This document shows, in pieces, positions 6,933 to 58,179 of a stretch of DNA of 64,000 nucleotides. This stretch comes from Afipia sp. 1NLS2 (GTDB taxonomy: Bacteria; Pseudomonadota; Alphaproteobacteria; Rhizobiales; Xanthobacteraceae): contig NZ_ADVZ01000001.1 of assembly GCF_000178995.1 (NCBI RefSeq), forward strand, positions 716,001 through 780,000, read 5' to 3'. Both the position numbers and the translations under genes were made by a program. Position 1 is the stretch's first letter. Each line of letters begins with the position of its first letter. The notes beneath the pieces are model-generated. The model had not been told where the DNA came from and ran no database searches. It was given only the letters and a program-made list of their open reading frames with translations.

Positions 6933-7109
6933 TCGGCGCCACATATGCAGAAACTGCAACATCCGGTCGATGATTCCGAAGACTGAAGACGGCCATTCTC
7001 GGCACCCCATCATCAGGCAACGGGGCTTTCTGTGACCCCGCCGAGCTTTGGCTTGCACAGCGATCCCTTAGCGCAGTTGCATATGTTAAAAGCGAGCCCC
7101 CCCCTAGCA

Positions 7110-46000: not shown

Positions 46001-46310
46001 TTGCGGACAGGCGCAGAAAAGTGTGACGATCAAGCATCACGGGATGTTGCGGCTCTACAATGATCTCAAGCGCCGCCACGAACTCTGGATGAAGGATGGT
46101 CACACGCGCTTCCTCAAGGGCGACATCAAGCAGTTGGCCTATTTCAGGGACAAGTCCCGCCGCGCAACGGTCGAGTTTGAGGTCATCATCGCGCAACCCG
46201 GTGCATCTGCAGCTGCTCTCAACGATGATGCGCTGCTGCTGCTCGGGACGACGGAGTTATACCTGAAGAAAACGGCGGCTGCCGGCTTGCGCGTCATCGT
46301 TTCGCCGTAG
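43017..46310 (+). CDS. Large SF2 helicase with probable C-terminal PD-(D/E)xK nuclease
   Basis: A 1,097-residue protein. Motif I is VVLPTGTGKTETM (residues about 165-177), motif II LVVDEAHHIT (about 275-285), motif III QFTATPFRRDER, and motif VI TLQFIGRITRKGDD. About 500 residues of unknown sequence follow. Near residue 943-985 a nuclease-like patch reads FNDDGSGEAADLVGL, then TIRLCLIHCKNAYKG, compatible with D-xn-(E/H)xK. The start was put at ATG 43017 (MSLFKKW); a GTG at 42951 in the same frame is possible. It resembles DEAD/DEAH helicase-nucleases found singly in defence islands. It does not match a named system I can confirm. Confidence 0.72.
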   Translation: MSLFKKWTRPIRLPSAPERRLRAGNNSITQTVFQEAVVSADFFESQHSGHDLIRTKLSAPFDEMLVRFPKAHRVTTPLPVLTAVDPEDYKQPSSPLELSWDRLGALETWADSPEKVLESWRNRFTFAVEDLDQGHPGLRLPQIGALHAIAAHFSVGREFEPATVVLPTGTGKTETMLADLVYRRERKILVLAPSLILRNQIGVKFSTLGVLPAAGAIPVELARPFVAKITKGISTVGHAEAIVNASNVIIATPDILKASAPDALHRLLEGCSILVVDEAHHITAATWSEVRDRFAAKKIIQFTATPFRRDERKVDGKIIFNFKLGDAQESGYYRRINLRSVEEYGDQSTRDQKIVAEAVAVLRRDRNELSLDHLLMARTRTKERAEEVWRHYRKLAPEMKPVLVYSGPGRKTGNAKSMAQLYDRSVNGSRIVVCVDMLGEGVDLPNLKIAALHDTHKSLAVTLQFIGRITRKGDDKTIGEATVVTNIADPEAERKLGDLYAEGADWDKIIKRLSEERIEQELRLQDVVAGLKSKGTLHNQLSLWNMRPRFSTQIYRTRCLTWSPTLYTQVLKSKDESWYALDEAQNLLVAVVHREEPVDWGNYQTLEETNYYLLVMWWNQANQGLFIYASDYEALRTEQLASIVTSDNARLLSGTPIFQILNNVELPLAKSLGSSRVGAISFTSYFGPNVTEGLASIEKAESELNNIACIGYENGDRVLWGGAKRKGKVWQQRAGTLAEWVEWCGRTWQKVSAEKASAPNITEDFLRPLRLTSPHNSYPIAIEWGEHAQNAFSDQFVFFGTTSIPLYLVDLEVAAVQQDGSIDIRLSSETLSATYRLSISNGFPAGYQHTKVSGPDVGFKKKNKEVVPLDEHLAVDPFVVRYADGTYSYNCYHIPTSLNAGRFPAARLESWPWKNIPLNQESMGKSRDANTIQHYAFQRLKADFDLVFNDDGSGEAADLVGLKEIDEKTIRLCLIHCKNAYKGVISQDIQNFYVLCGQAQKSVTIKHHGMLRLYNDLKRRHELWMKDGHTRFLKGDIKQLAYFRDKSRRATVEFEVIIAQPGASAAALNDDALLLLGTTELYLKKTAAAGLRVIVSP

Positions 46311-46569
46311 CACGTCCCCAGTCAGGCTATGTCCTGCCGACGCGGCATGGGCCGTTCTCCAAAAGCCCGGCTCCCAATCAATCCAAATCTGTTCATCTGT
46401 CCGGCACCCACTCCAATCAGTTCGCGCCCCAGGGTTGCACTCGCCGGTGCTGCACTTTCCGGATCTCCTGAACACGGCGTGCGCAGCGCAGAACATAATC
46501 GGCCGATCATCCGATCTCGCCACATAACACGACCGTGCCCATCACATAACTAAAGTCGGTACGGCGACC
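46311..46569. other. Intergenic region before the SigF-type promoter
   Basis: About 260 bp from the helicase stop to the promoter site. No gene or hairpin supported. Confidence 0.35.
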
Positions 46570-46594
46570 GTAACCTTTCCGAAGATCGATCGAA
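46570..46594 (+). promoter_or_regulatory. SigF-type promoter (VKOR-radical SAM-methyltransferase operon)
   Basis: GTAACC (46570-46575), a 15-nt spacer beginning TTTC, and CGAA (46591-46594), 77 bp before the VKOR start. It shares the pattern GTAAC(C/T)-N15/16-CGAA with four other sites in the window, all upstream of genes around sigF. Consistent with the Caulobacter SigF consensus GTAACC-N16-CGAA as I recall it. Confidence 0.7.
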
Positions 46595-46670
46595 CCGTCT
46601 TATTGATGCCGCCGTACCGACTTTGCTGGGTCGCTGCGGCGATCGAAGGCACCGAGGGGTCGTCGAGACA

Positions 46671-47066
46671 ATGAGTTCCTCCCGCTACATCGCATTCACC
46701 GTCGCAGCGGCAAGCGCAGCCGCAATGTTCTACGTCGGCCTGTACCAGAGCCGTCTGGTCGGTCGCCTCATCTGCCCATTCCTCGGCGAGCAGTGCGAGG
46801 GCGTTGCCGACGCACCGTTCGCGCGGCCCTTCGGCATTCCGGACGGCTACATCGGCGCCGCCCTGTACATCGTCATTCTTGGCCTGCTGATCGCACCGCC
46901 TGCGCGATGGACCTGGATCGCGCTGCTCGTCCTCGCCGTGACCGCGACGGCGGCAAACGTGCTTGGGATCCGCGATATGATGAACTTCGGCGGTTACTGC
47001 TTCTACTGCCTCACGACCGCCGCGCTGTCGCCCGTCCTGCTATGGGCAATCTGGAAGTTCGGGTAA
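46671..47066 (+). CDS. Vitamin K epoxide reductase (VKOR)-family membrane protein
   Basis: A 131-residue membrane protein with four hydrophobic segments. The loop cysteines are in CPFLGEQCEG and the active-site pair in GGYCFYCLTTAAL. Bacterial VKOR proteins oxidise periplasmic thioredoxin-like proteins and reduce quinone, supporting disulfide formation. ATG 46671 has no strong ribosome-binding site beyond GAGGGG at about 46655. It begins the operon led by the SigF-type promoter, with the radical SAM gene 17 bp downstream. Confidence 0.85.
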   Translation: MSSSRYIAFTVAAASAAAMFYVGLYQSRLVGRLICPFLGEQCEGVADAPFARPFGIPDGYIGAALYIVILGLLIAPPARWTWIALLVLAVTATAANVLGIRDMMNFGGYCFYCLTTAALSPVLLWAIWKFG

Positions 47067-47083
47067 ATGTCAAAGGAAACGGC

Positions 47084-48625
47084 ATGGACATCAAGAGGCG
47101 CGCCGCAGTCGGCCGAGGTCCGGCTCTGGAGGGAGGCATGCCCGCTCGGCGCGTCGATTCGGACTACATCTTCCACGAACTCACCCGCAGCATCTGCCCG
47201 TTCTGCAAGACGGTGATCGATGCCAAGATTTTGCTGCGCGACAACAAGGTCTACATGAGCAAGCGTTGCCCGCACTGCGGTCCGTTCATGGCGCTCATCT
47301 ACGAAGACGCGCAGGCATATGTGTCGTTCGCCCGCTTCAACAAGCCTGGCACGATCCCGCTGGCGTACGGCACGCAGCACGACAAGGGCTGCCCGCACGA
47401 TTGCGGACTCTGTCCCGACCACGAACAGCACGCCTGCCTCGGAATCATCGAGGTAAACAGCGCGTGCGACATGAACTGTCCGCTCTGCTTCGCGGACGCG
47501 GCGCCGGGCTTCAGCCTCACGATGGAGGAAGTCGAGCAGATGCTCGACGACTATGTCCGCACAGAAGGTCAGCCTGAAGTCGTCCAGTTCTCCGGTGGCG
47601 AACCGACGGTGCACCCACGGATTATCGACTTCGTCCGCGCCGCCTATGCCCGCGATATCCGCTTCGTCATGCTAAACACCAACGGCAAGCGCATCGCCCG
47701 CGACGACAGGTTTCTCGCTGAACTCGAAACGGTCCGTCCCTCGTTCTACTTCCAATTCGACGGTTTCGAGCGGGAGACCTACCGCGCGATCCGAGGCGAG
47801 CCCGACATCCTCGAAGAGAAGCTGCGCGCTCTCGACCGCCTGGCGCAGATCGGTCTCGACGTGACCATCGTCCCCGCCATCGAGCGCGGCATCAACGAGC
47901 ACGAGATCGGCCGCATCGTCGACTTCGCCATCGAACATCCGGCAATCCGCGGCATCACCTTCCAGCCCGCCTTCCACGCTGGCCGGCACGGCTCCCACGA
48001 CCCGATGCAGCGCATGACGATCCCCGACATTGTCCGGATGATCGAGGCACAGACCGCCGGCAAGTTTATCGCCTCGGACTTTGTCCCGGTGCCGTGCTGC
48101 TTCCCAACCTGCAATTCGGTGACCTATGCGTTCGTCGAGGGCACCAAGGTCACGCCGCTGCCGCGCATCGTCGATGTCGGCGACTATCTCGACTACATCA
48201 CGAACCGCATCGTGCCGGATTTCAGCCGGGAAGTCAGGACCGCGCTCGAGGGACTCTGGTCCTCGTCCTCCGTCGCCGGCTCCGACGCGTCGGAGCGACG
48301 ACTCGAGATTACGTGTCAGACCTGCGAGCTTCCGGACGGTCTAGCCATCAACAGCATTGCAAAGAACATGATTATGATCATGCTCCAGGATTTCATGGAT
48401 CCCTGGACCTTCAACCAGAAGAACGCGATGAAGTGCTGCAAGGAGTTCTTGCTGCCGGGTGGCAAACAGGTCCCGTTCTGCACATTCAACACCGTCGGCT
48501 ACCGCGAGCAGGCACGCGCGCAACTGAACGCAATGGAGCCGGAGCGCCGCCAGGCGCGTAAGGAGGGCCGACCCTATAAGCCGAAGCCGATCGTCTTCGA
48601 CTTCGGCGACAAGCGCGCTCGATGA
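47084..48625 (+). CDS. Radical SAM enzyme of the Tes (tetraether lipid synthase)-like group
   Basis: A 513-residue radical SAM protein with all Cys groups of the Tes/MJ0619-like family: N-terminal ICPFCKTVIDAKIL with KRCPHCGPF, then GCPHDCGLCPDHEQHACLG, the radical SAM SACDMNCPLCFADA (CxxxCxxC) and FSGGEPTVHPRI. The C-terminal half has VPVPCCFPTCNS, ITCQTCELPDG, and AMKCCKEFLLPGGKQ with PFCTFNTVGYREQA. ATG 47084 in frame with a nearby AAGGAAA. In archaea Tes joins phytanyl chains by C-C bonds; bacterial members act on unknown lipids or other substrates. It overlaps the methyltransferase by 4 bp. Confidence 0.85.
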   Translation: MDIKRRAAVGRGPALEGGMPARRVDSDYIFHELTRSICPFCKTVIDAKILLRDNKVYMSKRCPHCGPFMALIYEDAQAYVSFARFNKPGTIPLAYGTQHDKGCPHDCGLCPDHEQHACLGIIEVNSACDMNCPLCFADAAPGFSLTMEEVEQMLDDYVRTEGQPEVVQFSGGEPTVHPRIIDFVRAAYARDIRFVMLNTNGKRIARDDRFLAELETVRPSFYFQFDGFERETYRAIRGEPDILEEKLRALDRLAQIGLDVTIVPAIERGINEHEIGRIVDFAIEHPAIRGITFQPAFHAGRHGSHDPMQRMTIPDIVRMIEAQTAGKFIASDFVPVPCCFPTCNSVTYAFVEGTKVTPLPRIVDVGDYLDYITNRIVPDFSREVRTALEGLWSSSSVAGSDASERRLEITCQTCELPDGLAINSIAKNMIMIMLQDFMDPWTFNQKNAMKCCKEFLLPGGKQVPFCTFNTVGYREQARAQLNAMEPERRQARKEGRPYKPKPIVFDFGDKRAR

Positions 48626-49419
48626 GCATCCCCGAAGCCCCGTCAGAGACGATCAAGCGCTGCTGCGCCGCGGCCTACGACCACGACGCAGTCCGGATCT
48701 TGGTCGGCGATACGCTGCACCCCGGCGGCGCGCGGCTCACCGAACGGATGGGCCAGCTCTTGAGTCTGACGCCGGCTTCCCGCGTGCTGGACGTCGCGTC
48801 GGGGCGCGGCGACGGCACGCTAGTGCTCGCCGCGCGCTTTGGCTGCGAGGTCGTCGGTCTCGACTTCGGACGGCGGAACGTGGAAACAGCGACGAACGCA
48901 GCGAGAGAACGAGGGCTCGCCGACAAGGTCACGTTCTACTGCGGCGACGCCGAGAAGCTTCCGTTCGCCGACGGAGCGTTTGACGCCGTCTTGTGCGAGT
49001 GCGCACTGTGCACGTTCCCGGATAAGCCGATGGCCGTCGCCGAATTCGCCCGCGTGCTGAAGCCGGGCGGACGCGTCGGCATCAGCGACCTCACGCGCAG
49101 CGGCCCGCTGCCCCGGGAGCTCGAAGGCCTTGCCGCCTGGATCGCCTGTGTCGCGGACGCACGACCGCTCGACGAGTACCGCGCGCTGCTCGCCGGCGCC
49201 GGCCTGGCTGTCGGCGTGACGGAACTGCACGACGGCGCTCTGGTCGACTTCGTGGACGCGATCTGGATGCGGCTTTTCACGACCGAGATCATGGTCGGAC
49301 TGAAGAAGATCGACCTGACCGGCCCCGACCTCGCCGCGGCCAAGGACATCGTTCGGCACGCGCTCGCCGCGGCCAAGTCTGGCGTCCTCGGCTACGCGAT
49401 CGTGACGGCCGCGAAATAG
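48622..49419 (+). CDS. Class I SAM-dependent methyltransferase
   Basis: A 265-residue methyltransferase of the UbiE/ArsM-like fold. The N-terminus IKRCCAAAYDHDAVRILVGD with TLHPGGARLTERM precedes motif I VLDVASGRGDGTLVLAARFG; motif II is VVGLDFGRRNV, and LPFADGAFDAVLCECALCTF fits motif IV. The paired N-terminal Cys and the CECALC motif resemble some arsenite methyltransferase-like proteins, but the ArsM cysteine set is not complete. It overlaps the radical SAM gene as ATGA, so the two enzymes probably act on the same or linked substrates, for example a methylated lipid. Confidence 0.82.
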   Translation: MSIPEAPSETIKRCCAAAYDHDAVRILVGDTLHPGGARLTERMGQLLSLTPASRVLDVASGRGDGTLVLAARFGCEVVGLDFGRRNVETATNAARERGLADKVTFYCGDAEKLPFADGAFDAVLCECALCTFPDKPMAVAEFARVLKPGGRVGISDLTRSGPLPRELEGLAAWIACVADARPLDEYRALLAGAGLAVGVTELHDGALVDFVDAIWMRLFTTEIMVGLKKIDLTGPDLAAAKDIVRHALAAAKSGVLGYAIVTAAK

Positions 49420-49428
49420 TCGGCAGCC

Positions 49429-49713
49429 TCAAGGGACGACTTTCACGCCTTTCCAGAAAGCAACTTTGCAGGCGATGTTGGCAGCCGCCGGTCTCGGATT
49501 CGGGTAGTATCACGCGGCGTCGGCGTTCTCGCGATCCCCGACCTTCACGGTGTAGTATTTCGCCATGCCCTTCCACGGACACACGCTGGTGGTGGCGCTC
49601 TCTCTGAAATGCTCCGGCGACAGTGCTCCCGAAGGGAAATAGTGGTTGCCTTCGACGACCACGGTCTGGTCGGATTGTGCGATCACGACGTCGTTCCAGA
49701 TTGCCTTGGGCAT
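49429..49713 (-). pseudogene. DUF427 protein with in-frame TGA at a conserved Trp
   Basis: From ATG 49713 the frame reads MPKAIWNDVVIAQSDQTVVV, then EGNHYFPSGALSPEHF, SVCPWKGMAKYYTVKVGD and ENADAA, where a TGA stop (49510-49512) appears. The same frame continues straight on with YYPNPRPAAANIACKVAF and WKGVKVVP, stop at 49429. DUF427 proteins have DAAWYYPxP at that point, so TGG became TGA. The rest of the domain (about 94 residues in total) is intact, suggesting a recent nonsense change or a sequencing error. The role of DUF427 is unknown. Confidence 0.8.
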
Positions 49714-49785
49714 GGCATACTCCTAACCGAGCATGTCGATGAGCGGACGATAGCCGCGGTCAGCGAGCAGCTGCGCGGCGACCGG

Positions 49786-50454
49786 CTAGTCGCGGATCGA
49801 GGGCCGCGGCGCGATCCATTGGATCATGCGGCGTCCAAACAGACCCCCGAGACCGACGAACATCATCGCCGTCCCGATGTTGAACATGATGATCATGAGC
49901 GTCGCATCTCCCGAATGGAAGAACGACAGGGCCGTCGCGGTGATCGCGGCCACCGACAGACTCCCCATGACCGCCACCGCGGTAGGGCGCAGCGGCGCCG
50001 CATACCGCAGCATGATAACCATCGCGAGCGACAGCGGCAGGCCGGTAAGCACCAACGTGGCGAGACATCGGCTCGTCTCGCCGAGGCCGACCCCGTCCGG
50101 CCCCATCGATACCCATTGCGTGAGGCACTGGTAGCCGATATTCGCCAGCCAAAGAACAACTGCAGGTGCCGGCAGAAGGAGCCACAGGCGCGAGCGGTCC
50201 GGCAGGCTCACCAGGAAGGCGGCGACCGCGGCGAGCACGCCCGTCAGGATCGCCCCGATCATGCCGGCGGCGAACGAAAGATCGTGAATCCGCGTCGCGA
50301 GATCTGGACGGATCCCCTGGCTGACCGCCACGAGACCCACGACCACCGTCGCGAGCAGAAGCCAGCACGCGGCGCGCGTCACCGGAGGACGCAGCCGGCG
50401 TACCGGCTTCAAGTTCTTCGAGAGAGATTCGATGAGATCGGGTGTCGCAATCAT
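49786..50454 (-). CDS. nrsF: NrsF-like membrane anti-sigma factor (DUF1109)
   Basis: A 222-residue protein with six predicted membrane spans (for example TRAACWLLLATVVVGLVAVS, MIGAILTGVLAAVAAFLVSL, GLPLSLAMVIMLRYAAPLRP) and the DUF1109 start MIATPDLIESLSKNLKPVRR. NrsF-type proteins hold an ECF sigma factor at the inner membrane until a stress signal, such as chromium or cadmium in Caulobacter, releases it. The start overlaps the sigma-factor stop by 4 bp. Its gene is the last of the bufferin operon. Confidence 0.88.
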   Translation of the reverse strand: MIATPDLIESLSKNLKPVRRLRPPVTRAACWLLLATVVVGLVAVSQGIRPDLATRIHDLSFAAGMIGAILTGVLAAVAAFLVSLPDRSRLWLLLPAPAVVLWLANIGYQCLTQWVSMGPDGVGLGETSRCLATLVLTGLPLSLAMVIMLRYAAPLRPTAVAVMGSLSVAAITATALSFFHSGDATLMIIMFNIGTAMMFVGLGGLFGRRMIQWIAPRPSIRD

Positions 50455-51083
50455 GGTTCGCTCCGATCGCCGAGAATCTTCCGCAGGCGCTTCACCGCCC
50501 GGTGCACGTTCACCTTCAGTGCCGCGATCGACATACCGCTCGCGGTCGAGGCCTCCTTCAGCGACATCTCCTTGAGCTTGAGTAGTTGTACCGCTTTGCG
50601 CTGCATGGGGGGAAGCTCGTCGATCGCCTTTTCGAGTTCGTGTCTGTCGGGTGTCTCTTCAAGGTTCGCCTGAGGCTCGGCAAAGGTTTCATGCTCTGGT
50701 ATCAGCGGCGTTTCCCGGTCGCGCCGGCGTCCCTGCCGCCGGAGCCGGTCGATGAACCGCCGGTTCGCGATCGTCACGAGCCACGGGCCGAATGGCCTGG
50801 TCGGATCGAATGTGTGCCGGATTGCGTGGACGGTTAGCAGGACGTCCTGCACCGCGTCCTCGACGTCGCTGGGGTCGCGATGCCGCCGCGCCGCCAGCGA
50901 ACGCAGGTAGGGAGTGATTTCCCGAAGGAGGCGCCGATAGGCCGACCTGTCGCCGTCCTGGGCATGAGCCATCAGGATCGCCCAGTCGGTATCGTGGATC
51001 GTGGGTCCGGGGACGGCATGCGCGGCGTCGCCTTCGCAGCCGACGAGCCTGAGTTGCGGAGGCCGCTCGTTTCGCTCGGTCAT
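50451..51083 (-). CDS. sigF: ECF sigma factor of the SigF group
   Basis: A 210-residue ECF sigma factor. Region 2 reads DPSDVEDAVQDVLLTVHAI with PFGPWLVTIANRRFIDRLRR; region 4 reads ELPPMQRKAVQLLKLKEMSL and EASTASGMSIAALKVNVHRA. The NrsF-type gene directly downstream identifies it as the SigF/ECF16 class, which in Caulobacter uses a GTAACC/CGAA promoter. Five such sites occur in this window. It lies within the operon bufA-bufB-bufC-doxX-sigF-nrsF, so it is positively autoregulated. Overlaps the doxX stop by 4 bp. Confidence 0.92.
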   Translation of the reverse strand: MTERNERPPQLRLVGCEGDAAHAVPGPTIHDTDWAILMAHAQDGDRSAYRRLLREITPYLRSLAARRHRDPSDVEDAVQDVLLTVHAIRHTFDPTRPFGPWLVTIANRRFIDRLRRQGRRRDRETPLIPEHETFAEPQANLEETPDRHELEKAIDELPPMQRKAVQLLKLKEMSLKEASTASGMSIAALKVNVHRAVKRLRKILGDRSEP

Positions 51084-51592
51084 GGACGGCCTCCGTCAGT
51101 GACTCGACGGCGTCGACACAGCGAGGCGGCGAGATGGTCGAGCGAAAGCTTGCCGGGACCGATCGCCATGAGGGCCACAGCGAGCGCCGCCCACGGCAGG
51201 TGGAAGTTCGCCCACCCCTCCGGCACGACCAGTTGGATCACTCCCGTCATGACCAGGAGTGCAAGCGCGCTGAAACGCGTCGCGAATCCCAGGATCAGCA
51301 AGACCGGCAGCACGATCTCCGCGATACCGTCGAAGTACGCGAACACGGCGGGAAAAGGAAAATCGTACGCGTGTCCGAGGATGTGCAGCTTGAACTCATC
51401 TTCGAAGAGGAACGACGCCGCCGGCGACAGAGACAGGAAGCCGTCCCACTTCGTCAATCCCGATTTGAAGAACGGCAGCGCCAGAGCGATGCGAAGCACC
51501 GGCGGCGCCACAACGAGGGCGACCCGCGCGAGGCGCTCCACGAGGTCCTGCACGACATCTTCGATGGTCGATATGGTCGAAAAAGCGCTCAT
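51080..51592 (-). CDS. DoxX-family membrane protein
   Basis: A 170-residue integral membrane protein. It has the DoxX core LRIALALPFFKSGLTKWDGF, then FPAVFAYFDGIAEIVLPVLL and ILGFATRFSALALLVMTGV, with about four spans. DoxX proteins often accompany redox and metal-stress genes and may form complexes with membrane thiol or superoxide systems. It overlaps both neighbours by 4 bp. Here it is a routine accessory gene of bufferin operons. Confidence 0.88.
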   Translation of the reverse strand: MSAFSTISTIEDVVQDLVERLARVALVVAPPVLRIALALPFFKSGLTKWDGFLSLSPAASFLFEDEFKLHILGHAYDFPFPAVFAYFDGIAEIVLPVLLILGFATRFSALALLVMTGVIQLVVPEGWANFHLPWAALAVALMAIGPGKLSLDHLAASLCRRRRVTDGGRP

Positions 51593-52377
51593 GTCCGTAG
51601 CGGCTTCTGCGCAAACCCGAAACCAACCACCGCGCCCACCCGGATCAGATCTGACAAATTCGCCGAAAGATCGAAACTCGGGTCGGCGGCAATAGCTTGC
51701 TCGAAAGCGGCAAGCACCGGCCTTCCGGATGCGAGCGCATGGATGAACTCCGGACTGCCATTCGGAATCGATCGAATCTCCACGCCGGCCTCCGGCCGGA
51801 CGAGAAGCGCGTTTTCGCCGCCGACCGCCAAATCGACCGGACCAGGAACGCCGCCTTCGACGTTCATCTGCCAGATCGTCAACGCGGGAAACGGTGAGCG
51901 TACGATCCGGACTGCCGGATGCAGTACCAAGGTGACGGCAGGAAGTCGGTCCGATGCGATGTCCGCGAACGCCGAAAGACTGATCGGCAAGGCTTCGGCC
52001 GCGTGATAAGCCTCCGTCCAGGCCCGCTCGATGCGCGCCACATCAGCCAGATATGGCAGCACGGATGCGGGTTTGAACCGGCCGATGAAGTCCGGGAGGC
52101 CCGCGCCGTAGTCGAACAGCATCGGCGACCGGGGCAAATCAACGACAACATAGGCGCGTGCCAAGGTGTTGAAGAATTCCGACCCGACGATGCGGTGCAC
52201 GGCGGGATAGGCGTCCTTCAATGTCTGCGTCAGGCCGACGATCACGTTGTTGCGATAGACGGCAAAGCGCCGCGAACTCGGTCTTCCGTCGGGGCCGACT
52301 AGCCCGGCCGGCGTCGGGAGCGTGGGATCGAGCAACGCGGCCGCAAAAGCGCGTTGCCTCTCAGCGAGCGACTGCAT
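51589..52377 (-). CDS. bufC: BufC-like DUF2063 domain protein
   Basis: A 262-residue protein with the DUF2063/HvfC-BufC N-terminal domain: [37 protein letters not shown] and [20 protein letters not shown]. In RiPP systems of this kind it partners with the DUF692 enzyme to present the precursor peptide. ATG 52377 chosen; it overlaps the bufB stop by 17 bp. It does not contain cofactor motifs. Confidence 0.85.
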
Positions 52378-53248
52378 GACGCGGCGTCTCCAGTCGGTTG
52401 GCAAACATGATCGTCTCGGCCCGTTCGGCTTCGTGCGCGAGCGTCGGCCAGGCCGGCACGTCAGCATCCCATTCGATCAGCGTGGGCACCGGGCCGATAA
52501 GCCGCGCCGTCAGTTCGTAGAGATGCCAGACAGCATCTTCGACCGGACGGTCGTGGCTGTCGATGAGCAGCGGCCTCGCCTCCTCGTCCTCCTGCCTGGT
52601 ATTGCCGGCGAGATGAATCTCTTTGACGCGCGCGAGCGGATACCCCTCGATGTAGGCGACTGGATTCCACTGCTGATTGGTCGACGCGACGAAGACATTG
52701 TTGACGTCGAGCAGCAGGCCGCAGCCGGTGCGCCGGGCTACCTCGGCGATGAAGTCCGTCTCCGTGTAGGCGCTCTCGGCGAACGCGACGTAGGTCGACG
52801 GATTTTCAAGAAGCATCTCGCAGCCGAGCGCGGTCTGGATCTGATCGATATGCTCGACCACCCGCTTGAGCGTCTCGACGGTGTATGGCAGCGGCAGCAG
52901 ATCGTTGAGGAAACCCACGTCGTGCGAGGACCACGCCAAATGCTCGGAGAACAGGCCAGGCGTGTAGCGCCGCCTCATATCTCTCAGCCGCGCGATGTGG
53001 TCTTCGTCGAGCGGCCGGTCCGCCCCGATCGAGAGTCCGACGCCGTGAAGAGACAACGGGTAGCGTTCCCGAATGGCCGACAGATACCGGTGCGGCGGAC
53101 CTCCCGCGCCCATGTAGTTCTCCGCATGCACCTCGAAGAAGCCCACATCGGGCAACGTGTCGATGATCGTGCGATAGTGCTCGGCCTTGAGGCCGACGCC
53201 GGCGCGCGCCGGTATGCGATCTTCTAGCGATGACGAAGGATTGCGCAT
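52361..53248 (-). CDS. bufB: BufB-like DUF692 iron enzyme
   Basis: A 295-residue DUF692 protein (MbnB/BufB family, TIM-barrel with a multi-iron centre). Metal-ligand segments are visible: [74 protein letters not shown] and [11 protein letters not shown]. Known role: post-translational conversion of precursor Cys residues to oxazolone- or thiooxazole-type copper ligands. Here it presumably modifies the BufA product encoded 48 bp upstream. Overlaps the bufC gene start. Confidence 0.92.
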
Positions 53249-53296
53249 GGCGACCTCAAGGATAGAAGGCGGGCCGTCACGCCCGCCCGGGTTTCG

Positions 53297-53638
53297 TCAG
53301 GCCTTCGGGGTGAGGCTTCCGGCCCCCTTCGGCGTGTGCATCGTGGTGCAGGTGCCCTTGGGCTCGAGCTTGAACGCGTTGCCCTGATAGTCAACGGCGC
53401 TGGTGCCGGCGCAGGTCGTCCCAGCTCCGGCGTAGCAGTCATTCTGTCCCTTCAGGGCGACGCCAAAGCACTTCTCCATTTTCCCGCCCGCCATCGCCTT
53501 CATGGTCTGGGCCTGCTTCTCCTTCATCATCTTTTCCATGTCGGCCTTGCTTTGCGCGGTGGCGGACGTGGCGGCGAGCGTTCCGATGGCGACGGCGAAC
53601 GCGCCGGCCACCATTGCGTTAAGCGTGCGATTGGACAT
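53297..53638 (-). CDS. bufA: BufA-like bufferin precursor (DUF2282)
   Basis: A 113-residue secreted small protein of the DUF2282 family. The signal peptide [20 protein letters not shown] is followed by a Lys/Met-rich segment and the conserved core [35 protein letters not shown] and PKGTCTTM: four cysteines at the typical spacing. Bufferins are copper-chelating peptides made in response to metal excess. ATG 53638 has AGGA upstream. It is the first gene of the operon and has the SigF-type promoter 83 bp before its start. Confidence 0.9.
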
Positions 53639-53720
53639 TCGAGTTCCTCCAGGTTCTGGGCGACTTTGCGAAGTGCATGGCCGCAAGTCCGACGGGCTGT
53701 TACTCCCGTCTGTACCGATG

Positions 53721-53745
53721 TTCGCCGCAACGTCCGAAAGGTTAC
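53721..53745 (-). promoter_or_regulatory. SigF-type promoter (bufA operon)
   Basis: On the minus strand: GTAACC (53745-53740), 15-nt spacer starting TTTC, CGAA (53724-53721). It stands 83 bp before bufA ATG and would drive bufABC-doxX-sigF-nrsF, giving sigF autoregulation. Confidence 0.78.
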
Positions 53746-53885
53746 CTTCGCAAATGTGCGGTCTCCGCCGTCTCCCATCGGTTCGTGGGGAACACTCGCT
53801 CCGGCATTCCCGTCCGCGTTATCGAGATCGCAACGAGATGGGATATCGCAGCGCCATTTTCTCCTTCGGTTCAAAATCGGCGGCG

Positions 53886-54605
53886 TCACAGTCGCGTCGT
53901 CACATTCACCAGCCATTCTGGCATGGCTTTCGTCAGCGAGGTCTCGACGATCTTGTCGAGGCCGGTGAGCACGAAGAGTCCGATTCCGAAGAAGGCGGCC
54001 CCCATGAGCGGTTTGCCGATGCGCGAGGCGCGCGCCATCCAGTCCCGCCGGGCCATGATCGCCTGGCGCGAACCGTAGGCGAGCAGGAGAATCGGTGTCG
54101 CGGCTCCGAGCGCGAACGCCGACATCGTCGCGGCGGCCCGACCGAGATCGTCGCCCTGGGCTGCAAGACCGATGGCCGCGCCGAGCGTCGGCCCCGAACA
54201 CGGCGACCAGATCACGCCAAGCACAGCGCCGAGCGCGAACTGGCCCCAGATGCCGGACGGCTGAAGTCGGTCGAGGAGGGCCTGGCCCTTGCCCGCAAGC
54301 GGCGACGCCATGGAGGCCACCTTGCCCTGCAGCGTCGGCACCAGAAGAACCACGCTAGCCGCGCCCATTACTGCCGCGACGGCGAGCCGCAGCGTCTCGG
54401 GATCGATCCCGACGCTGAAGCCGACCGACGCGAGCGCGATCCCTATTCCGGCGAACGAAGTCGCCAGTCCCGCGGCGAGCGCGACCGGTCCCCACAGATG
54501 CCGATCGAGTGCGCCGAACAGCACGATCGGCAGGATCGGAAGCACGCATGGCGAGAGCGTCGATAGCGCCCCCGCGGCGTAGCCGAGCGCGAGATTTGCG
54601 GACAC
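53886..54605 (-). CDS. CcdA/DsbD-like thiol-transporting membrane protein
   Basis: A 239-residue membrane protein of the CcdA family with about six spans. The two cysteine motifs are GALSTLSPCVLPILPIVLFG at the N-terminus and VLGVIWSPCSGPTLGAAIGL near residue 130. The family carries reducing power from cytoplasmic thioredoxin across the membrane to periplasmic proteins. Its gene follows the thioredoxin-like gene by 1 bp. Confidence 0.92.
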   Translation of the reverse strand: MSANLALGYAAGALSTLSPCVLPILPIVLFGALDRHLWGPVALAAGLATSFAGIGIALASVGFSVGIDPETLRLAVAAVMGAASVVLLVPTLQGKVASMASPLAGKGQALLDRLQPSGIWGQFALGAVLGVIWSPCSGPTLGAAIGLAAQGDDLGRAAATMSAFALGAATPILLLAYGSRQAIMARRDWMARASRIGKPLMGAAFFGIGLFVLTGLDKIVETSLTKAMPEWLVNVTTRL

Positions 54606-54606
54606 C

Positions 54607-54987
54607 TCAGAACGCCTTCGCCACCAGCGCGCGCAGCGGTGCCGGAGCGGTCTCGCCGGTGGAGCGCGCGACTTCTTTCGATCCTTTGAACACGATCAAC
54701 GTGCTCTGGTACTGGACGCGAAACTGCCGCAGCACTTCCTTGGCGGTATCGAAGTCGACGTCGTACACCACGAGACCCGGATGCTCCTTCTCGATCTCCT
54801 GCACAATCGGCTTCTGTTGCTTGCAGGTCGGACACCAGGGCGCGGTGACGTCGATGAGGATCGACTTGCCCGCGGCCTGCGCAGCTTGAAAGGCCTTGGC
54901 GTCGTAGGGTTCGGCCGCCCAGGCGAGCGAGGGCATCGCGACGACCGCGGCGATCAGAATGGCGTTGCGAAGGAAGTTCGAGGACAT
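54607..54987 (-). CDS. Secreted thioredoxin-like protein
   Basis: A 126-residue protein with a signal peptide (NFLRNAILIAAVVAMPSLAW, then AA) and a thioredoxin fold with the active site VTAPWCPTCKQQKPI (CPTC). It is likely the periplasmic partner of the CcdA-like protein encoded 1 bp downstream. ATG 54987 chosen with AGAA upstream; an upstream extension is not believed. The SigF-type promoter lies 40 bp upstream. Confidence 0.9.
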   Translation of the reverse strand: MSSNFLRNAILIAAVVAMPSLAWAAEPYDAKAFQAAQAAGKSILIDVTAPWCPTCKQQKPIVQEIEKEHPGLVVYDVDFDTAKEVLRQFRVQYQSTLIVFKGSKEVARSTGETAPAPLRALVAKAF

Positions 54988-55026
54988 GCGGTTCTCCCTG
55001 GCTGCTGAGACGTCTCGACGCCAAGG

Positions 55027-55051
55027 TTCGCCGGGCACGGGGAAAAGTTAC
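55027..55051 (-). promoter_or_regulatory. SigF-type promoter (thioredoxin-ccdA operon)
   Basis: On the minus strand: GTAACT (55051-55046), 15-nt spacer TTTTCCCC.., CGAA (55030-55027), 40 bp before the thioredoxin start. One base from the GTAACC of the other four sites. Confidence 0.65.
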
Positions 55052-55137
55052 GTGGGTCTCGGAAAAATATCGGACATGCCCGCAGGCGCGGCGTGCTCTA
55101 CACATCACCGCGAGGCTCCGCAGAAAGGACATGCACG

Positions 55138-55698
55138 ATGACGGATCTCGTCCCTCTCTTTCCGAACCAAACCGTCCCGCCCCTGCGCGTTGATCTCGCC
55201 GGCGGCGGACGATTTGATCTCGCATCCGAACAGCCGTCCAACTTCACGCTCGTCGTCTTCTATCGTGGGCTTCATTGTCCCATCTGCAAGACGCAAATCA
55301 AGGAGCTTGAATCCAAGCTCGACGATTTCGAACAGCGCGGGGTCGCCGTCATGGCCGTATCGACCGACTCCAAGGAACGCGCAGAACAGACGCGGGAAAC
55401 CTGGGGACTGTCGCGGCTGCGCATCGGCTACGGCCTCCCGCTCGCCGCCGCCCGGCGCTGGGGACTGTACGTGTCGGCCGGGCACGGCAAGACGTCGGCC
55501 GGCGTCGATGAGCCGGCGCTTTTTTCGGAGCCTGCCATCTACCTGGTGAGACCGGACGGCACCCTGTACTTCGGCAGCGTGCAGACGATGCCGTTCGCGC
55601 GTCCGCATTTCTCCGACATCCTGCCGGCAATCGATTTCGTCGTGAAGAACAAGTATCCCGCTCGCGGCGAAGTGGCGGACCTCCGGAAGTTGGCCTAG
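55138..55698 (+). CDS. AhpC/TSA-like peroxiredoxin
   Basis: A 186-residue thioredoxin-fold protein. It has NFTLVVFYRGLHCPICKTQI with a CPIC pair, then VAVMAVSTDSKERAEQTRE and FSEPAIYLVRPDGTLYFGSV, typical of the peroxiredoxin-like AhpC/TSA group. No signal peptide, so likely cytoplasmic. ATG 55138 follows AGAAAGGA. It is divergent from the thioredoxin-ccdA operon. No SigF-type site was seen on its own strand. Confidence 0.88.
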   Translation: MTDLVPLFPNQTVPPLRVDLAGGGRFDLASEQPSNFTLVVFYRGLHCPICKTQIKELESKLDDFEQRGVAVMAVSTDSKERAEQTRETWGLSRLRIGYGLPLAAARRWGLYVSAGHGKTSAGVDEPALFSEPAIYLVRPDGTLYFGSVQTMPFARPHFSDILPAIDFVVKNKYPARGEVADLRKLA

Positions 55699-55711
55699 CG
55701 GGTCGCCGCCG

Positions 55712-56344
55712 CTACGTTCTGCTCAGATAAGCGATGAGGCCGTCCGCCGCAGCGGACGACCAGTCCGCATCTCCTGGCATGTAGCCGATGACCGTGCCCG
55801 AGCTCGAGATCGCGTAGGTGATCGGCATGCCGTAGAGCGCGAATGGCGCCTTGTTGACGTTGTCGGCATCCGAGTACGCGACGGATCCGTTGGGATCGAG
55901 AAAGATCGGCAGCGCCTTCAGATTGAGCGACTTGACGAACCGGATGACCGCGTCGCGCGGGCCCCGGTCTTCCGAAACCGCCGCGACGTGCACTCTGCCC
56001 CGCCAGGGACCACGGTACAGTTCGTCGAGCGCCGGCAACTCCATGCGGCAGGCAGCGCACCACGACGCCCAGAAATTCAGAAGGATCGGCTTGCCGCGCA
56101 GCGTAGACAAATCCGTCGTGCCGCCTTCGAGGCGGAACAGCCGCAGCGGCGGCAATTCCTGAGCGGGACGAAGGATGGTGAACTGGTAGCGTCCGGATTC
56201 GAACCTGGGAACGTCGGCTTCGATCGCGGCCGCTTCGCCCGACACGAGTCCGGCGGCCATGCCGGCCAACGCGCGCAGCAACACGTCGCGGCGCGACGGC
56301 ATCCGCGGCGCGCCCGGACCTGTGCCGACGGCCTCCTGCTTCAT
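55712..56344 (-). CDS. TlpA-like thiol:disulfide protein with Tat-type signal
   Basis: A 210-residue protein. Its N-terminus has a twin-arginine motif followed by a hydrophobic stretch (PSRRDVLLRALAGMAAGLVS), so Tat export is likely. The thioredoxin domain has LRGKPILLNFWASWCAACRM (CAAC), typical TlpA/ResA layout, with YGMPITYAISSSGTVIGYMP (cis-Pro region) near the C-terminus. ATG 56344 overlaps the upstream gene stop by 4 bp. It likely reduces periplasmic disulfides or metal-exposed thiols. Confidence 0.88.
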   Translation of the reverse strand: MKQEAVGTGPGAPRMPSRRDVLLRALAGMAAGLVSGEAAAIEADVPRFESGRYQFTILRPAQELPPLRLFRLEGGTTDLSTLRGKPILLNFWASWCAACRMELPALDELYRGPWRGRVHVAAVSEDRGPRDAVIRFVKSLNLKALPIFLDPNGSVAYSDADNVNKAPFALYGMPITYAISSSGTVIGYMPGDADWSSAAADGLIAYLSRT

Positions 56345-56670
56345 GCGATCTCCTGTACCAACAACGCAAGCGACGATTGAGGCACGGCCGGCCGGAACGC
56401 CGTGAAAAAGAACAACGGATTGGGCAGCCAGTACAACCATCCGATCGACGGTTCGCTCGTCCCGTCCGGAAGACGCAGATCGAGCCATACGTACAAGAAT
56501 TTGTAGATGCAGAGCCCAGGAATCCAGTTCGGCTTTAGCCGCGAGGTCTTCAGGTACTTCCGCGCGATGTAGTAGTTGCCTTCGAAAGGCGTGATTCCGA
56601 AGAGGCCGATCGGCCCTTCCGCGATGACCTCGCCGCTCGCTCGATGCGTGATCCGGACGTGGCGCGACAT
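56341..56670 (-). CDS. Small conserved protein of unknown function
   Basis: A 109-residue protein, not recognised. It opens MSRHVRITHRASGEVIAEGP, then FEGNYYIARKYLKTSRLKPN and FLYVWLDLRLPDGTSEPSIG, with Trp/Tyr/Phe-rich sequence (WLYWLPNPLFFFTAF) that could be membrane-associated. The gene heads an operon with the TlpA-like gene and has the SigF-type promoter 34 bp before its start. DUF427-like content was considered and not supported. Confidence 0.7.
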   Translation of the reverse strand: MSRHVRITHRASGEVIAEGPIGLFGITPFEGNYYIARKYLKTSRLKPNWIPGLCIYKFLYVWLDLRLPDGTSEPSIGWLYWLPNPLFFFTAFRPAVPQSSLALLVQEIA

Positions 56671-56703
56671 GCTTCGACTTTCCCTCCTATAGCTACGGAT
56701 TGG

Positions 56704-56728
56704 TTCGCCGCATCCGGCGAAAGGTTAC
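56704..56728 (-). promoter_or_regulatory. SigF-type promoter (small gene plus tlpA-like operon)
   Basis: On the minus strand: GTAACC (56728-56723), 15-nt spacer starting TTTC, CGAA (56707-56704), 34 bp before the 56670 start. It is divergent to a second site at 56752. Confidence 0.78.
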
Positions 56729-56751
56729 CTGTCGTTCGCGCAAAGTGTGAC

Positions 56752-56777
56752 GTAACCATCCCGCCCCTCCCGTCGAA
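56752..56777 (+). promoter_or_regulatory. SigF-type promoter (membrane-protein gene)
   Basis: Plus strand: GTAACC (56752-56757), 16-nt spacer, CGAA (56774-56777), 47 bp before ATG 56824. Its spacer is one base longer than at the other sites and lacks the TTTC start. Confidence 0.65.
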
Positions 56778-56823
56778 CGGTTCAGTGACGGTCCGTCGCC
56801 GACGGACAGATGGAGGAGATGCG

Positions 56824-57282
56824 ATGACTACAGGAAATTGGATGAAGGGACTGGGGGCGGGCTTCGTCGCCACTGTTGTCCTTTCCGCGCTCATGGTGAT
56901 GAAGGCAATGATGGGCGTGATGCCCGAGCTCAATCCGATCAAGATGATTGCCGACATGCTCGGTGCACCGCCGGCGGTCGGCTGGGCGATGCACTTCATG
57001 ATCGGAACGGTGCTCTGGGGCACGCTGGTCGCGTGGCTGAATCCCCACCTCCCCGGCGAGAGCCACTGGCTGAAGGGCATCGTGTTCGCCGTCGGTGCCT
57101 GGTTCGTCATGATGGCCGCGATGATGCCGATGGCCGGCGCCGGCCTCTTTGGATCCCATCTTGGGATGATGGCACCGATCATGACCCTGATGCTGCACGT
57201 CGTCTTCGGCTTCGTTCTCGGCGCCATCTATGCGCTCGAGCGGCCGGAAGATACCGGTGCCCTGCAGGGCGCTCGCACCTGA
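56824..57282 (+). CDS. Four-helix membrane protein (DUF6789-like)
   Basis: A 152-residue protein with four hydrophobic helices, unusually rich in Met and Gly (GAGFVATVVLSALMVMKAMM, WFVMMAAMMPMAGAGLFGSH, GMMAPIMTLMLHVVFGFVLG). The general layout matches the DUF6789 membrane proteins. Methionine-rich helices would suit metal binding, but this is an inference. ATG 56824 follows TGGAGGAG. Preceded by a SigF-type promoter and followed by a small zinc-ribbon gene. Confidence 0.72.
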   Translation: MTTGNWMKGLGAGFVATVVLSALMVMKAMMGVMPELNPIKMIADMLGAPPAVGWAMHFMIGTVLWGTLVAWLNPHLPGESHWLKGIVFAVGAWFVMMAAMMPMAGAGLFGSHLGMMAPIMTLMLHVVFGFVLGAIYALERPEDTGALQGART

Positions 57283-57308
57283 AACGCGGATCGAGTATAG
57301 CGGCGGAC

Positions 57309-57518
57309 ATGATCCTCGATTCCACCATTCGGTGCCCGAACTGCGGCAACGAGTCGACCGAGCGGATGCCGACGGACGCCTGCCAATTCTTCTACGACTG
57401 CAGGCACTGCGGCGTCCGCCTGAAGCCCAAGGAGGGCGACTGCTGCGTATTCTGCTCTTACGGAATGGTGCCGTGCCCGCCGCGCCAGGACTCCGAGGCT
57501 TGTTGCAGGCAATCCTAG
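57309..57518 (+). CDS. Small Cys-rich zinc-ribbon protein (GDCCVFCSYG family)
   Basis: A 69-residue cytoplasmic protein with three Cys pairs and one more motif: IRCPNCGNESTERMP, YDCRHCGVRLKPKEG, then the family signature GDCCVFCSYGMVPCPP and a terminal CC. A zinc or other metal-binding role is expected from the cysteines. It lies 26 bp after the membrane-protein gene and is probably cotranscribed. Confidence 0.8.
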   Translation: MILDSTIRCPNCGNESTERMPTDACQFFYDCRHCGVRLKPKEGDCCVFCSYGMVPCPPRQDSEACCRQS

Positions 57519-57723
57519 CATTCCTGCTTCACGGCGGTCGAAGGCACCTGACCAAGCCCCTCAAGGAACGTTACGAAATGACATCGACGCTTCAATACGA
57601 CGTGAGGGCTTGTGTCTTCGACGCCTACGGAAATCTGCACGTTGATGGGTATGCCCGTCTTAATTTGAACATGCAGCTTCATTTCATTGCGCCTGAGACA
57701 TCGCAAAGAGAGAGGTGGATAAA

Positions 57724-57969
57724 ATGAAAAAAATTTTCGTTGTCGCTGCCGCGTTGATTGCTGCTACGTCGGTGGCCTATGCCCGTGGAGGAGGATCTGG
57801 TGGTGGTGCCTCTGGGGTTTCGCCGGGTCACTCATTTCAGAGCAGCGGTCCCGTTGCTGGCACGCACGGCGCGTCTGGCTACTCTCCCGGGCATCAAATG
57901 AAGACCCAAGGATCAGTGTCCGGCCACCCGGGAGCATCGGGCTATGCACCTGGTAAGCTCAAGCACTAA
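57724..57969 (+). CDS. Small exported Gly/Ser/His-rich repeat protein
   Basis: An 81-residue protein with a signal peptide (KIFVVAAALIAATSVAYARG). The mature part is two imperfect repeats around GTHGASGYSPGHQMKTQG and GHPGASGYAPGKLKH, after GASGVSPGHSFQSSGPV. No function is known; such small exported proteins are common in Bradyrhizobium-type genomes. ATG 57724 follows GAGGTGG; a GTG at 57715 is an alternative. Confidence 0.75.
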   Translation: MKKIFVVAAALIAATSVAYARGGGSGGGASGVSPGHSFQSSGPVAGTHGASGYSPGHQMKTQGSVSGHPGASGYAPGKLKH

Positions 57970-58179
57970 AGCTGCGTGATCCATGAAGGGGCTGCCAATT
58001 AAGGTAGTCCCTTCACCGGCACGTCGCCGAAAGGAACCAAGCCGACTTCCTTCGCAAGGTGTCTTTCAGCCCCAGAACTAAACTGACACGCAATCCGCTG
58101 CATCTGCCATGAAAATGTTGCCCCTTCTCAGGCATCGCTACATAACAGTTGGATTTGCACGACTGAGGAGGGCAACTTT

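Follow-up and report, generated by a model that had tools for sequence, protein, structure and literature searches.

Matching SigF-type promoters very probably place a bufferin operon, disulfide-managing genes and a radical SAM operon under one stress sigma factor

In Caulobacter crescentus, the ECF sigma factor SigF is paired with the DUF1109 anti-sigma factor NrsF, and DUF2282-DUF692-DUF2063-DoxX (bufferin) operons are its main targets (PMC3511200, PMC8224329). The SigF consensus is GTAACC-N16-CGAA (PMC3511200). Copper induces the regulon and a sigF::Tn5 mutant is copper-sensitive; the SigF-dependent gene table, in the available portions of these papers, holds no VKOR, radical SAM, Trx-CcdA or TlpA gene (PMC3511200, PMC8224329). 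The ECF16 pair EcfF-OsrA of Bradyrhizobium japonicum is autoregulated, has promoter spacings of N14-15, and drives Trx and a DsbD-like protein together with Msr genes, which are known ECF16 targets (PMC3420878). In the accessible text no bufferin, VKOR, radical SAM or TlpA gene is named among the EcfF targets; four targets are given only as 'hypothetical protein' (PMC3420878). The reported inducers are H2O2 for EcfF and Cr, Cd and Cu for Caulobacter SigF (PMC3420878, PMC3511200, PMC8224329). An ECF16 sigma paired with an NrsF-type anti-sigma, and promoters of this type, are likewise described for RpoE7 of Sinorhizobium meliloti (PMC6180224) and for the ECF16 pair in PMC8315932. Orthologues of Caulobacter CC3254-CC3257 are among the genes that RpoE7 drives (PMC6180224), and for neither system does the accessible text name a thioredoxin/CcdA, VKOR or radical SAM operon as a target. 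The SigF consensus, the bufferin targets and the Trx and DsbD-like pair are already published (PMC3511200, PMC3420878, as far as accessible). No report of VKOR-radical SAM-methyltransferase, TlpA or DUF6789-GDCCVxC operons as ECF16 targets was found in the open-access literature. Switches like the one analyzed here are already known, but several of the targets appear new.

The window, a stretch of 64,000 nucleotides from Afipia sp. 1NLS2, carries the minus-strand operon bufA-bufB-bufC-doxX-sigF-nrsF. BufA is a DUF2282 bufferin precursor (53297..53638, PF10048) with four cysteines and, by eye, a signal peptide. It is followed by the MNIO bufferin maturase BufB (52361..53248; PF05114; NF050167 377.2 bits, cut-off 310), its DUF2063 partner BufC (51589..52380, PF09836), a DoxX family protein (51080..51592, PF07681), an ECF sigma factor of SigF type (50451..51083; Sigma70_r2, PF04542; Sigma70_r4_2, PF08281) and an NrsF-family (DUF1109) anti-sigma factor (49786..50454; PF06532 105.8 bits, cut-off 26.8). 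The locus thus holds the precursor, BufB-type enzyme and DUF2063 partner of a bufferin cluster. It also holds three marks of an ECF16/SigF-NrsF system, namely sigma regions 2 and 4, an adjoining DUF1109/NrsF protein, and GTAACC-N15/16-CGAA promoters that include the sigma operon's own. These profile matches bear out the placing of both regulators in the operon led by the bufA site by the sequence-only reading. As one site would drive the whole operon, SigF would autoregulate. In Caulobacter, by contrast, sigF-nrsF forms a unit of its own, apart from the buf operon (PMC3511200, PMC8224329, in part).

The anti-sigma factor departs from the described type. It did not reach the narrower NrsF equivalog NF042994 (17.1, cut-off 300), and it lacks the full pair of cysteines near 129-131 and 179-181 that is seen as C131/C181 in Caulobacter NrsF (PMC3511200, PMC8224329) and C129/C179 in OsrA (PMC3420878), in the accessible parts of those papers. 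A protein search with it listed 120 relatives. Its cysteines are Cys30, Cys110 and Cys130. C130 corresponds to the first canonical cysteine and is kept in 22/22 aligned proteins, the second is replaced by HSGD, and the additional C110 is found in 21/22. C110 and C130, 20 residues apart, perhaps lie in one loop. Two other NrsF proteins of the same genome are canonical (C129/C179 and C134/C184). Because the window NrsF is without the second canonical sensor cysteine, the system, judged by its sequence features, is an ECF16-like SigF/NrsF regulon, a variant by its NrsF cysteines. The moved cysteines offer a natural variant for studying stress sensing by NrsF-type anti-sigmas.

Five SigF-type sites had been proposed in the window from sequence alone, and all five were recovered at the same coordinates and strands. 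They are 46570..46594 (+), before the VKOR operon; 53721..53745 (-), before bufA-bufB-bufC-doxX-sigF-nrsF; 55027..55051 (-), a GTAACT form before trx-ccdA; 56704..56728 (-), before a 109-aa ORF and tlpA; and 56752..56777 (+), before DUF6789-GDCCVxC. GTAAC[C/T] and CGAA are separated by N15 in the first four, the VKOR site being GTAACC-N15-CGAA, and by N16 in the last. A spacer start of TTTC or TTTT had been noted for four sites; in all four it is TTTC, and at 56752 it is ATCC. Counted from the last base of CGAA, the start codon lies 76 bp away for VKOR (ATG at 46671), 82 bp for BufA, 39 bp for Trx, 33 bp for the 109-aa ORF and 46 bp for DUF6789, a range of 33-82 bp that agrees with the 34-83 bp noted before. 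The -35 and -10 elements are the same as in the Caulobacter SigF (PMC3511200) and ECF16 (PMC3420878) consensus in the accessible text. Caulobacter promoters have N16, whereas four of the five window sites have N15 (PMC3511200, PMC8224329), and the EcfF motif GTAAC(g,a)..CG(t,a) is unlike the window sites (PMC3420878), both as given in the portions available. The strict pattern GTAAC[CT]TTT[CT]N11-12CGAA matched the window 4 times and was absent from 300 dinucleotide shuffles; the loose pattern GTAACN16-17CGAA matched 6 times against 0.62 expected (100 shuffles). No sigma-70-like promoter was found in 46400-57600, where shuffles predict 1.5. The sixth loose match, at 12454(-), starts GTAACG and lies away from the cluster.

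The plus-strand operon behind the first site begins with a VKOR family membrane protein (46671..47066; PF07884 54.2 bits, cut-off 27.5). Its cysteine pairs, CPFLGEQC and CFYC, comprise residues 34, 41, 109 and 112 of the 130-aa query and are conserved in 9/9, 9/9, 8/8 and 8/8 sequences, window included; no solved structure was matched by sequence. The second gene (47084..48625, +) encodes a radical SAM protein with an N-terminal zinc ribbon. It matched PDB 7tol over residues 32-342 (E 2.6e-75) and is related to Tes (tetraether lipid synthase; NF045702, 315.9 bits, cut-off 450) and TrsS (NF045646, 314.7 bits, cut-off 490), under both NCBIfam cut-offs. The likeness consists of the zinc ribbon and the radical SAM core; unlike Tes and TrsS, the window enzyme shares its operon with VKOR and a DVU_1556-like methyltransferase (48622..49419, +; SAM-dependent, 137.8 bits, cut-off 155). 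We checked 29 of 31 radical SAM loci for upstream sites, leaving out L114 and L115. Some acidobacterial loci have no site within 400 bp 5' of the radical SAM gene. In these, a DUF6789 homologue lies 5' of the radical SAM-methyltransferase pair (L091, L094, L096, L102), or GDCCVxC (L100) or VKOR (L104) lies 3' of it. These neighborhoods are an independent link among the pair, DUF6789, GDCCVxC and VKOR.

On the minus strand, a thioredoxin-like protein (54607..54987; CPTC, PF00085, signal peptide by eye) precedes a CcdA/DsbD-type membrane electron transporter (53886..54605, PF02683), and a 109-aa conserved protein (56341..56670), with no Pfam or NCBIfam match at E 0.01, overlaps by 4 bp the gene of a TlpA-like thiol-disulfide oxidoreductase (55712..56344; NF047696 96.7 bits, below the cut-off of 230). 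On the plus strand, a DUF6789 protein (56824..57282; PF20587 105.4 bits, cut-off 27.1), Met-rich and membrane-like by eye, is followed by a 69-aa Cys-rich protein with a GDCCVxC domain (57309..57518; NF041374 102.4 bits, cut-off 40). An earlier frame for the latter, 57290-57540, was wrong. An AhpC/TSA peroxiredoxin-like gene (55138..55698, +; PF00578) also lies inside the cluster, and no SigF site was found before it on its strand.

Comparison of orthologous loci, which had been suggested as a check, showed that the sites recur 5' of the same lead genes to differing degrees. Only loci fetched by the SigF or radical SAM protein, not by the motif, were counted: eight SigF-homologue stretches (one own-genome), 31 radical SAM loci and two further own-genome stretches. 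Homologues had E up to 1e-8 and a query start up to residue 60. A site lay within 250 bp 5' in 9/9 BufA, 7/8 VKOR, 5/7 Trx, 2/4 109-aa ORF and 1/7 DUF6789 loci; three of the seven DUF6789 loci are acidobacterial, and L076 has no 5' sequence for that gene. Restricted to loci with VKOR as first gene of the radical SAM operon, the count is 7/7. No site precedes the VKOR gene lying 3' of the methyltransferase in L104, or two Trx copies, both in L079. None occurs in the 989 bp before the sigF-neighboring VKOR homologue of L148, a stretch with no radical SAM match. The own-genome stretches L033 and L163 were first noticed through the motif scan and L076 (G012) has the same sequence at these genes, which makes the rows concerned less than fully independent. 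Among kept sites, identity to the window was 70-100% in the -35 and 83-100% in the -10 boxes, 58-100% in TTTC, 51-70% in the rest of the spacer and 38-68% in the flanks. These relatives were chosen by a located site and start codon, so the values are silent on how often sites are kept, and the lower values for the Trx -35 (70%) and 109-aa ORF -10 (83%) stem partly from alignment shifts in N16 rows. In G091 the DUF6789 site is kept and the gene is lost from about its start codon onward. The comparison supports the bufA and VKOR sites strongly, the trx site well, the 109-aa ORF site more thinly and the DUF6789 site least.

Could the sites be chance similarity of GC-rich upstream regions? In the own genome (3.97 Mb) the loose pattern matched 39 times, fewer than its backwards control (61), and the one-mismatch N15 form 123 times (control 296). 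The loose pattern alone therefore identifies no regulon, and loose scans were dropped as a regulon detector for the TTTC-extended pattern and spacing histograms. With the TTTC extension the motif is specific in this genome: GTAACCTTTCN11-12CG gave 6 matches against 1 for the control. In a class-wide scan of 387 genomes it was, outside the family, barely above control (22 non-own matches versus 17) and so uninformative there. GTAACYTT-N3..28-CGAA was not raised in total (19 versus 21 backwards), yet the two SigF spacings hold 10/19 matches, four of them this cluster, the other nine being spread over 24 gaps (Poisson ~8e-9; P values are indicative, related genomes not being independent). In 296 family genomes, 40/107 matches to GTAACCTTTC-N4..24-CGAA fell at N15/N16, and the remaining 19 gaps averaged 3.5 (largest 11). 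The control total was ~130, above the motif's 107; the spacing counts given are those of the motif. For 25 of the 40, a homologue of one of the five lead genes follows at 21-114 bp; the 25 include six rows from G026 and G019 (L073, L074), which have equal values at every gene and make one observation. Counting against the regulon reading, twelve of the 40 strict family matches precede neither a known target nor an ECF gene, among them an own-genome match (L031) ~260 bp before a luxR-family gene. L086 and G091:C16 (L144) seem to be one and the same record; L144 alone entered this count, and L086 the 5'-recurrence count and the radical SAM locus test. The spacing peaks and the recurrence before bufA, VKOR and trx contradict chance for the set as a whole, and we hold it highly improbable; for 56752 alone, with its 1/7 loci, chance is less firmly excluded. 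Together with the 25/40 family matches, these results uphold the proposal that SigF-type promoters tie the operons together.

Matching sites, most of them conserved in position among relatives, very probably let one stress sigma switch on the bufferin operon, the disulfide-managing genes and the uncharacterized radical SAM operon. The earlier claim has the window SigF drive its own and four other operons. Its promoter type stands by comparison, least so for DUF6789, and we infer the dependence on this SigF. Besides two canonical SigF-NrsF pairs, the genome encodes three that are linked to bufferin genes, with five NrsF genes in all. The other two bufferin-linked sigmas are 67% and 59% identical to the window SigF, and similar motifs occur at the bufferin loci. 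The sites might then be real ECF16 promoters read by a paralogous sigma (one of the other two bufferin-linked copies, or the two canonical ones) or by several with overlapping specificity, the window SigF not being sole master; possible EcfF-EcfS cross-talk is mentioned in the accessible part of PMC3420878. We give this a lesser though appreciable probability. Against it, the window sites adjoin the window sigF, in L144, L085 and L087 the sites of bufA and VKOR accompany sigF, and bufferin sites are all N15 in eight aligned relatives versus N16 before bufA in L077, L033, L080 and L081.

The redox roles proposed for CcdA, Trx, TlpA and VKOR follow the disulfide chemistry of Dsb/VKOR systems. 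The regulon most likely serves against copper/thiol stress: bufferin would bind copper, and CcdA/Trx/TlpA/VKOR would reset the thiols of the periplasm. NrsF would restrain SigF until the NrsF cysteines are affected by an excess of copper or by a different thiol-reactive stress. Freed SigF would transcribe the bufferin operon, and exported BufA, modified by BufB/BufC, would sequester copper. An electron relay from CcdA to thioredoxin and TlpA would reduce wrong periplasmic disulfides, and VKOR would re-oxidize thiols, alongside the Tes/TrsS-like radical SAM enzyme and the methyltransferase. SigF would also transcribe the Met-rich membrane protein with the Cys-rich GDCCVxC protein. We consider this joint explanation, by ECF16-type SigF promoters, autoregulation and a copper/thiol programme, likely; SigF dependence, signal and division of labor are what we infer within it. 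VKOR, Trx-CcdA and TlpA could instead serve the maturation of bufferin, not stress repair, should bufferin require a disulfide; BufA has four cysteines and looks exported, and in L073, L144 and L148 redox genes share a locus with buf genes. We think this unlikely: bufferin loci L075, L149, L155 and L157 gave no VKOR or Trx-CcdA match (the last three being stretches of ~5 kb), and EcfF drives Trx and the DsbD-like protein with Msr and no named bufferin, four targets being hypothetical (PMC3420878, accessible part).

Under the copper/thiol stress reading, one cluster unites two partial published pictures, the Caulobacter bufferin regulon and the Bradyrhizobium EcfF thioredoxin/DsbD-like regulon. 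The VKOR-radical SAM-methyltransferase operon, 109-aa ORF, DUF6789 and GDCCVxC, all conserved and uncharacterized, gain a testable context, envelope copper/thiol stress under SigF. A bolder proposal, which we hold only tentatively and think rather doubtful, is an ECF16-like sub-branch with the anti-sigma Cys pair moved to C110/C130, promoters mostly N15 and an envelope copper-and-thiol programme. A VKOR-radical SAM-methyltransferase pathway not described before would belong to its core; in Acidobacteria, too, this pathway is linked to DUF6789 and GDCCVxC proteins. It would yield a novel protective compound, either a lipid or a small molecule that binds metal.

The regulon extends beyond the five operons. 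Further own-genome sites stand before a pyridine nucleotide-disulphide oxidoreductase gene (L032) and, with CGTA as the -10, 35 bp before the peptide methionine sulfoxide reductase gene msrA (PMSR 201.6 bits).

All five sites of the form GTAAC(C/T)-N15/16-CGAA that the sequence-only reading had listed were found where it placed them, confirming the observation itself. They are intergenic, and each stands ahead of one of five operons: VKOR-radical SAM-methyltransferase (+, site at 46570), bufA-bufB-bufC-doxX-sigF-nrsF (-, 53721), trx-ccdA (-, 55027), 109-aa ORF-tlpA (-, 56704) and DUF6789-GDCCVxC (+, 56752). Within all five operons neighboring genes overlap or are separated by no more than 48 bp. 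Domains were assigned with Pfam and NCBIfam; neither gave a match to the conserved 109-aa ORF (56341-56670, -). This ORF lies directly 5' of tlpA in three related loci (L073, L144 and L090), and a 52% paralogue at L163 1455-1775 has no adjoining tlpA. The interpretation of the sites as one regulon is supported, to a degree that differs site by site.

Orthologous clusters were fetched by protein, and recurrence was scored as GTAAC[CT]-N15/16-CGAA within 250 bp 5' of the gene in loci not fetched by motif, a set that includes two stretches of the Afipia genome itself first noticed through the motif scan. The site precedes bufA in 9/9 loci, VKOR in 7/8, trx in 5/7, the 109-aa ORF in 2/4 and DUF6789 in 1/7. 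The sole VKOR locus without it, L104, has VKOR on the 3' side of the methyltransferase gene, and both trx copies without it are in L079. The seven DUF6789 loci include one without 5' sequence and three from Acidobacteria. The two other DUF6789 copies in the Afipia genome have a site about 190-290 bp upstream, depending on the start, and those of L151 and L153, both found by motif, have one 33 bp upstream. Because the counts differ, the predicted promoters are supported unequally: strongly for bufA and VKOR, well for trx, moderately for the 109-aa ORF and weakly for DUF6789.

The boxes were also compared with the 40 bp upstream, in relatives picked because the site had been located. For BufA the -35, TTTC and -10 elements are 100% conserved in eight relatives vs 40% in the flank; for VKOR the -35 is 90% and the -10 96% in seven relatives vs 38%; and for DUF6789 both are 100% in three relatives vs 52%. 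These contrasts are clear. The 109-aa ORF box (-35 100%, -10 83%, three relatives) compares with 68%. The contrast for Trx is small (-10 100%, -35 70%, five relatives, vs 61%); its -35 is GTAACT in the window and GTAACC in relatives. All five sites are retained in L144 (= L086), where the DUF6789 promoter and leader (13436-13520) persist and the gene is missing from about its start codon, so this promoter is orphaned. The bufA, trx, 109-aa ORF and DUF6789 sites are kept in L073 and L074 (sigma 90% identical), with no VKOR operon seen in the fetched stretch. The VKOR and bufA sites are both present in L085 and L087, on either side of sigF. In L148 it is the trx and bufA sites that remain; no radical SAM match was seen in this stretch, and the 989 bp ahead of the VKOR homologue there contain no site. 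The bufB and VKOR matches of L148 are each split over two frames (6995-7863 and 10624-11012), reflecting decay or sequencing error.

Could such sites arise by chance? Inside the window the loose pattern exceeds expectation (6 matches vs 0.62 from shuffles). Across the whole 3.97 Mb genome, where the window is G000:C10:716001-780000, it is not enriched (39 vs 61 for the backwards control), nor is its one-mismatch form (123 vs 296). The distinctive form GTAACCTTTC..CG occurs six times vs once in the control. Spacing is the best test of chance. In 10/19 genomic matches to GTAACYTT-N3..28-CGAA the total length is 25 or 26, and the other nine are scattered over 24 other gaps; contig C10 carries all ten correctly spaced matches, including four inside the window. 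Because the total of 19 does not exceed the control (21), this signal lies in the spacing alone. Likewise, among the 107 matches listed for GTAACCTTTC-N4..24-CGAA in 296 family genomes (control about 130, by our own count), 19 fall at N15 and 21 at N16, and the other 19 gaps hold a mean of 3.5 and at most 11. The 40 matches at the exact spacings come from 22 genomes, vs 7 in the control, also our count. Of these, 25 sit 21-114 bp before a BufA, Trx, VKOR, 109-aa ORF or DUF6789 homologue, six of these rows coming from L073 and L074, which are nearly identical; three others directly precede an ECF sigma gene (L158, L159 and L160), and 12 have neither kind of neighbor.

Radical SAM relatives were found at 31 loci, 29 of which were tested for the site. 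It is present in 7/7 VKOR-led loci (L085-L090 and L095), as GTAACTTTC in L095 and GTAACCTTT in the other six, and absent from the other 22, mostly from Acidobacteria and Chloroflexi, save one weak GTAACTTCC form in L107. The site thus tracks the VKOR-led operon form rather than the radical SAM gene as such. In Acidobacteria the radical SAM-methyltransferase pair has DUF6789 5' of it in L091, L094, L096 and L102, GDCCVxC 3' in L100 and VKOR 3' in L104, and this is a conserved uncharacterised module. No SigF-type site turned up in the fetched sequence of the first four; sites do occur in L100 and L104, at kilobase distances, with none in the 400 bp 5' of the radical SAM gene. Since parts that stand under two promoters in the window are neighbors elsewhere without a nearby site, this is an independent sign that they act together. 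No aligned sequence lacks any of the four VKOR cysteines at the positions it covers, and the same holds for 18/19 radical SAM cysteines (the exception, Cys65, is present in 18/24), so both proteins look functional. The radical SAM protein falls below the NCBIfam cut-offs of both Tes and TrsS.

The window system resembles ECF16 systems in partner, promoter and targets, but its anti-sigma factor lacks the second canonical cysteine. PMC3511200 and PMC3420878 describe sigma release as governed by NrsF/OsrA cysteines, C131/C181 in Caulobacter NrsF (PMC3511200) and C129/C179 in OsrA (PMC3420878). Two canonical NrsF proteins in the Afipia genome have C134/C184 and C129/C179, the latter an exact match to OsrA. 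The window NrsF has HSGD in place of the second cysteine and a new cysteine 20 residues before the first. When it was aligned with 21 relatives, Cys110 was present in 21/22 and Cys130 in 22/22; the exception, L100, has alanine and ends at a contig end. We infer that C110/C130 may be a moved sensor pair.

In published work, the Caulobacter SigF regulon is induced by copper and a sigF::Tn5 mutant is copper-sensitive (PMC3511200, PMC8224329), and bufferins chelate copper (PMC12452194). In Afipia, copper or thiol stress would release SigF, bufferin would bind copper, CcdA would pass electrons to exported thioredoxin and TlpA, VKOR would restore oxidising power, and the radical SAM/methyltransferase pair would synthesise some product. 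Bufferin targets in Caulobacter (PMC3511200) and a Trx plus DsbD-like pair as a target of Bradyrhizobium EcfF (PMC3420878) are already published, so a regulon of this kind is not in itself a novelty. Open-access literature searches did not find VKOR-radical SAM-methyltransferase, 109-aa ORF-tlpA or DUF6789-GDCCVxC as ECF16 targets.

Two more SigF-NrsF-bufferin loci, each with SigF-type sites, occur in the genome: L077 (sigma 67%; island G000:C10:1066000-1085900) and L033 (sigma 59%; with L163, G000:C10:1329000-1343200). Both islands hold redox gene paralogues; trx-ccdA, DUF6789 and 109-aa ORF paralogues lie near L033, in L163. Paralogue specificity might lie in N15 vs N16 spacing. Further strict-type sites stand 35 bp before a peptide methionine sulfoxide reductase gene (L078, -10 CGTA), Msr being a known ECF16 target (PMC3420878), and before a pyridine nucleotide-disulphide oxidoreductase gene adjoined by a second (L032; G012 has the same site). 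A perfect strict site at L031 2001-2026 (-) is a doubtful candidate for the promoter of a luxR-family gene that lies some 260 bp further on; an autoinducer synthase gene comes next after that gene.

Directly downstream of nrsF is a DUF427 reading frame (49432-49713, -; PF04248, 71.3 bits on the first piece) whose 67th residue is followed by an in-frame TGA, beyond which open sequence continues; it is a pseudogene or an assembly error. GC content is 61-66% across the cluster (46000-58000) vs 53-59% in its flanks, and a sigma factor at least 59% identical is present in only 4/28 congeners searched (G012, G019, G026 and G028), which suggests that the cluster is a horizontally moved island.
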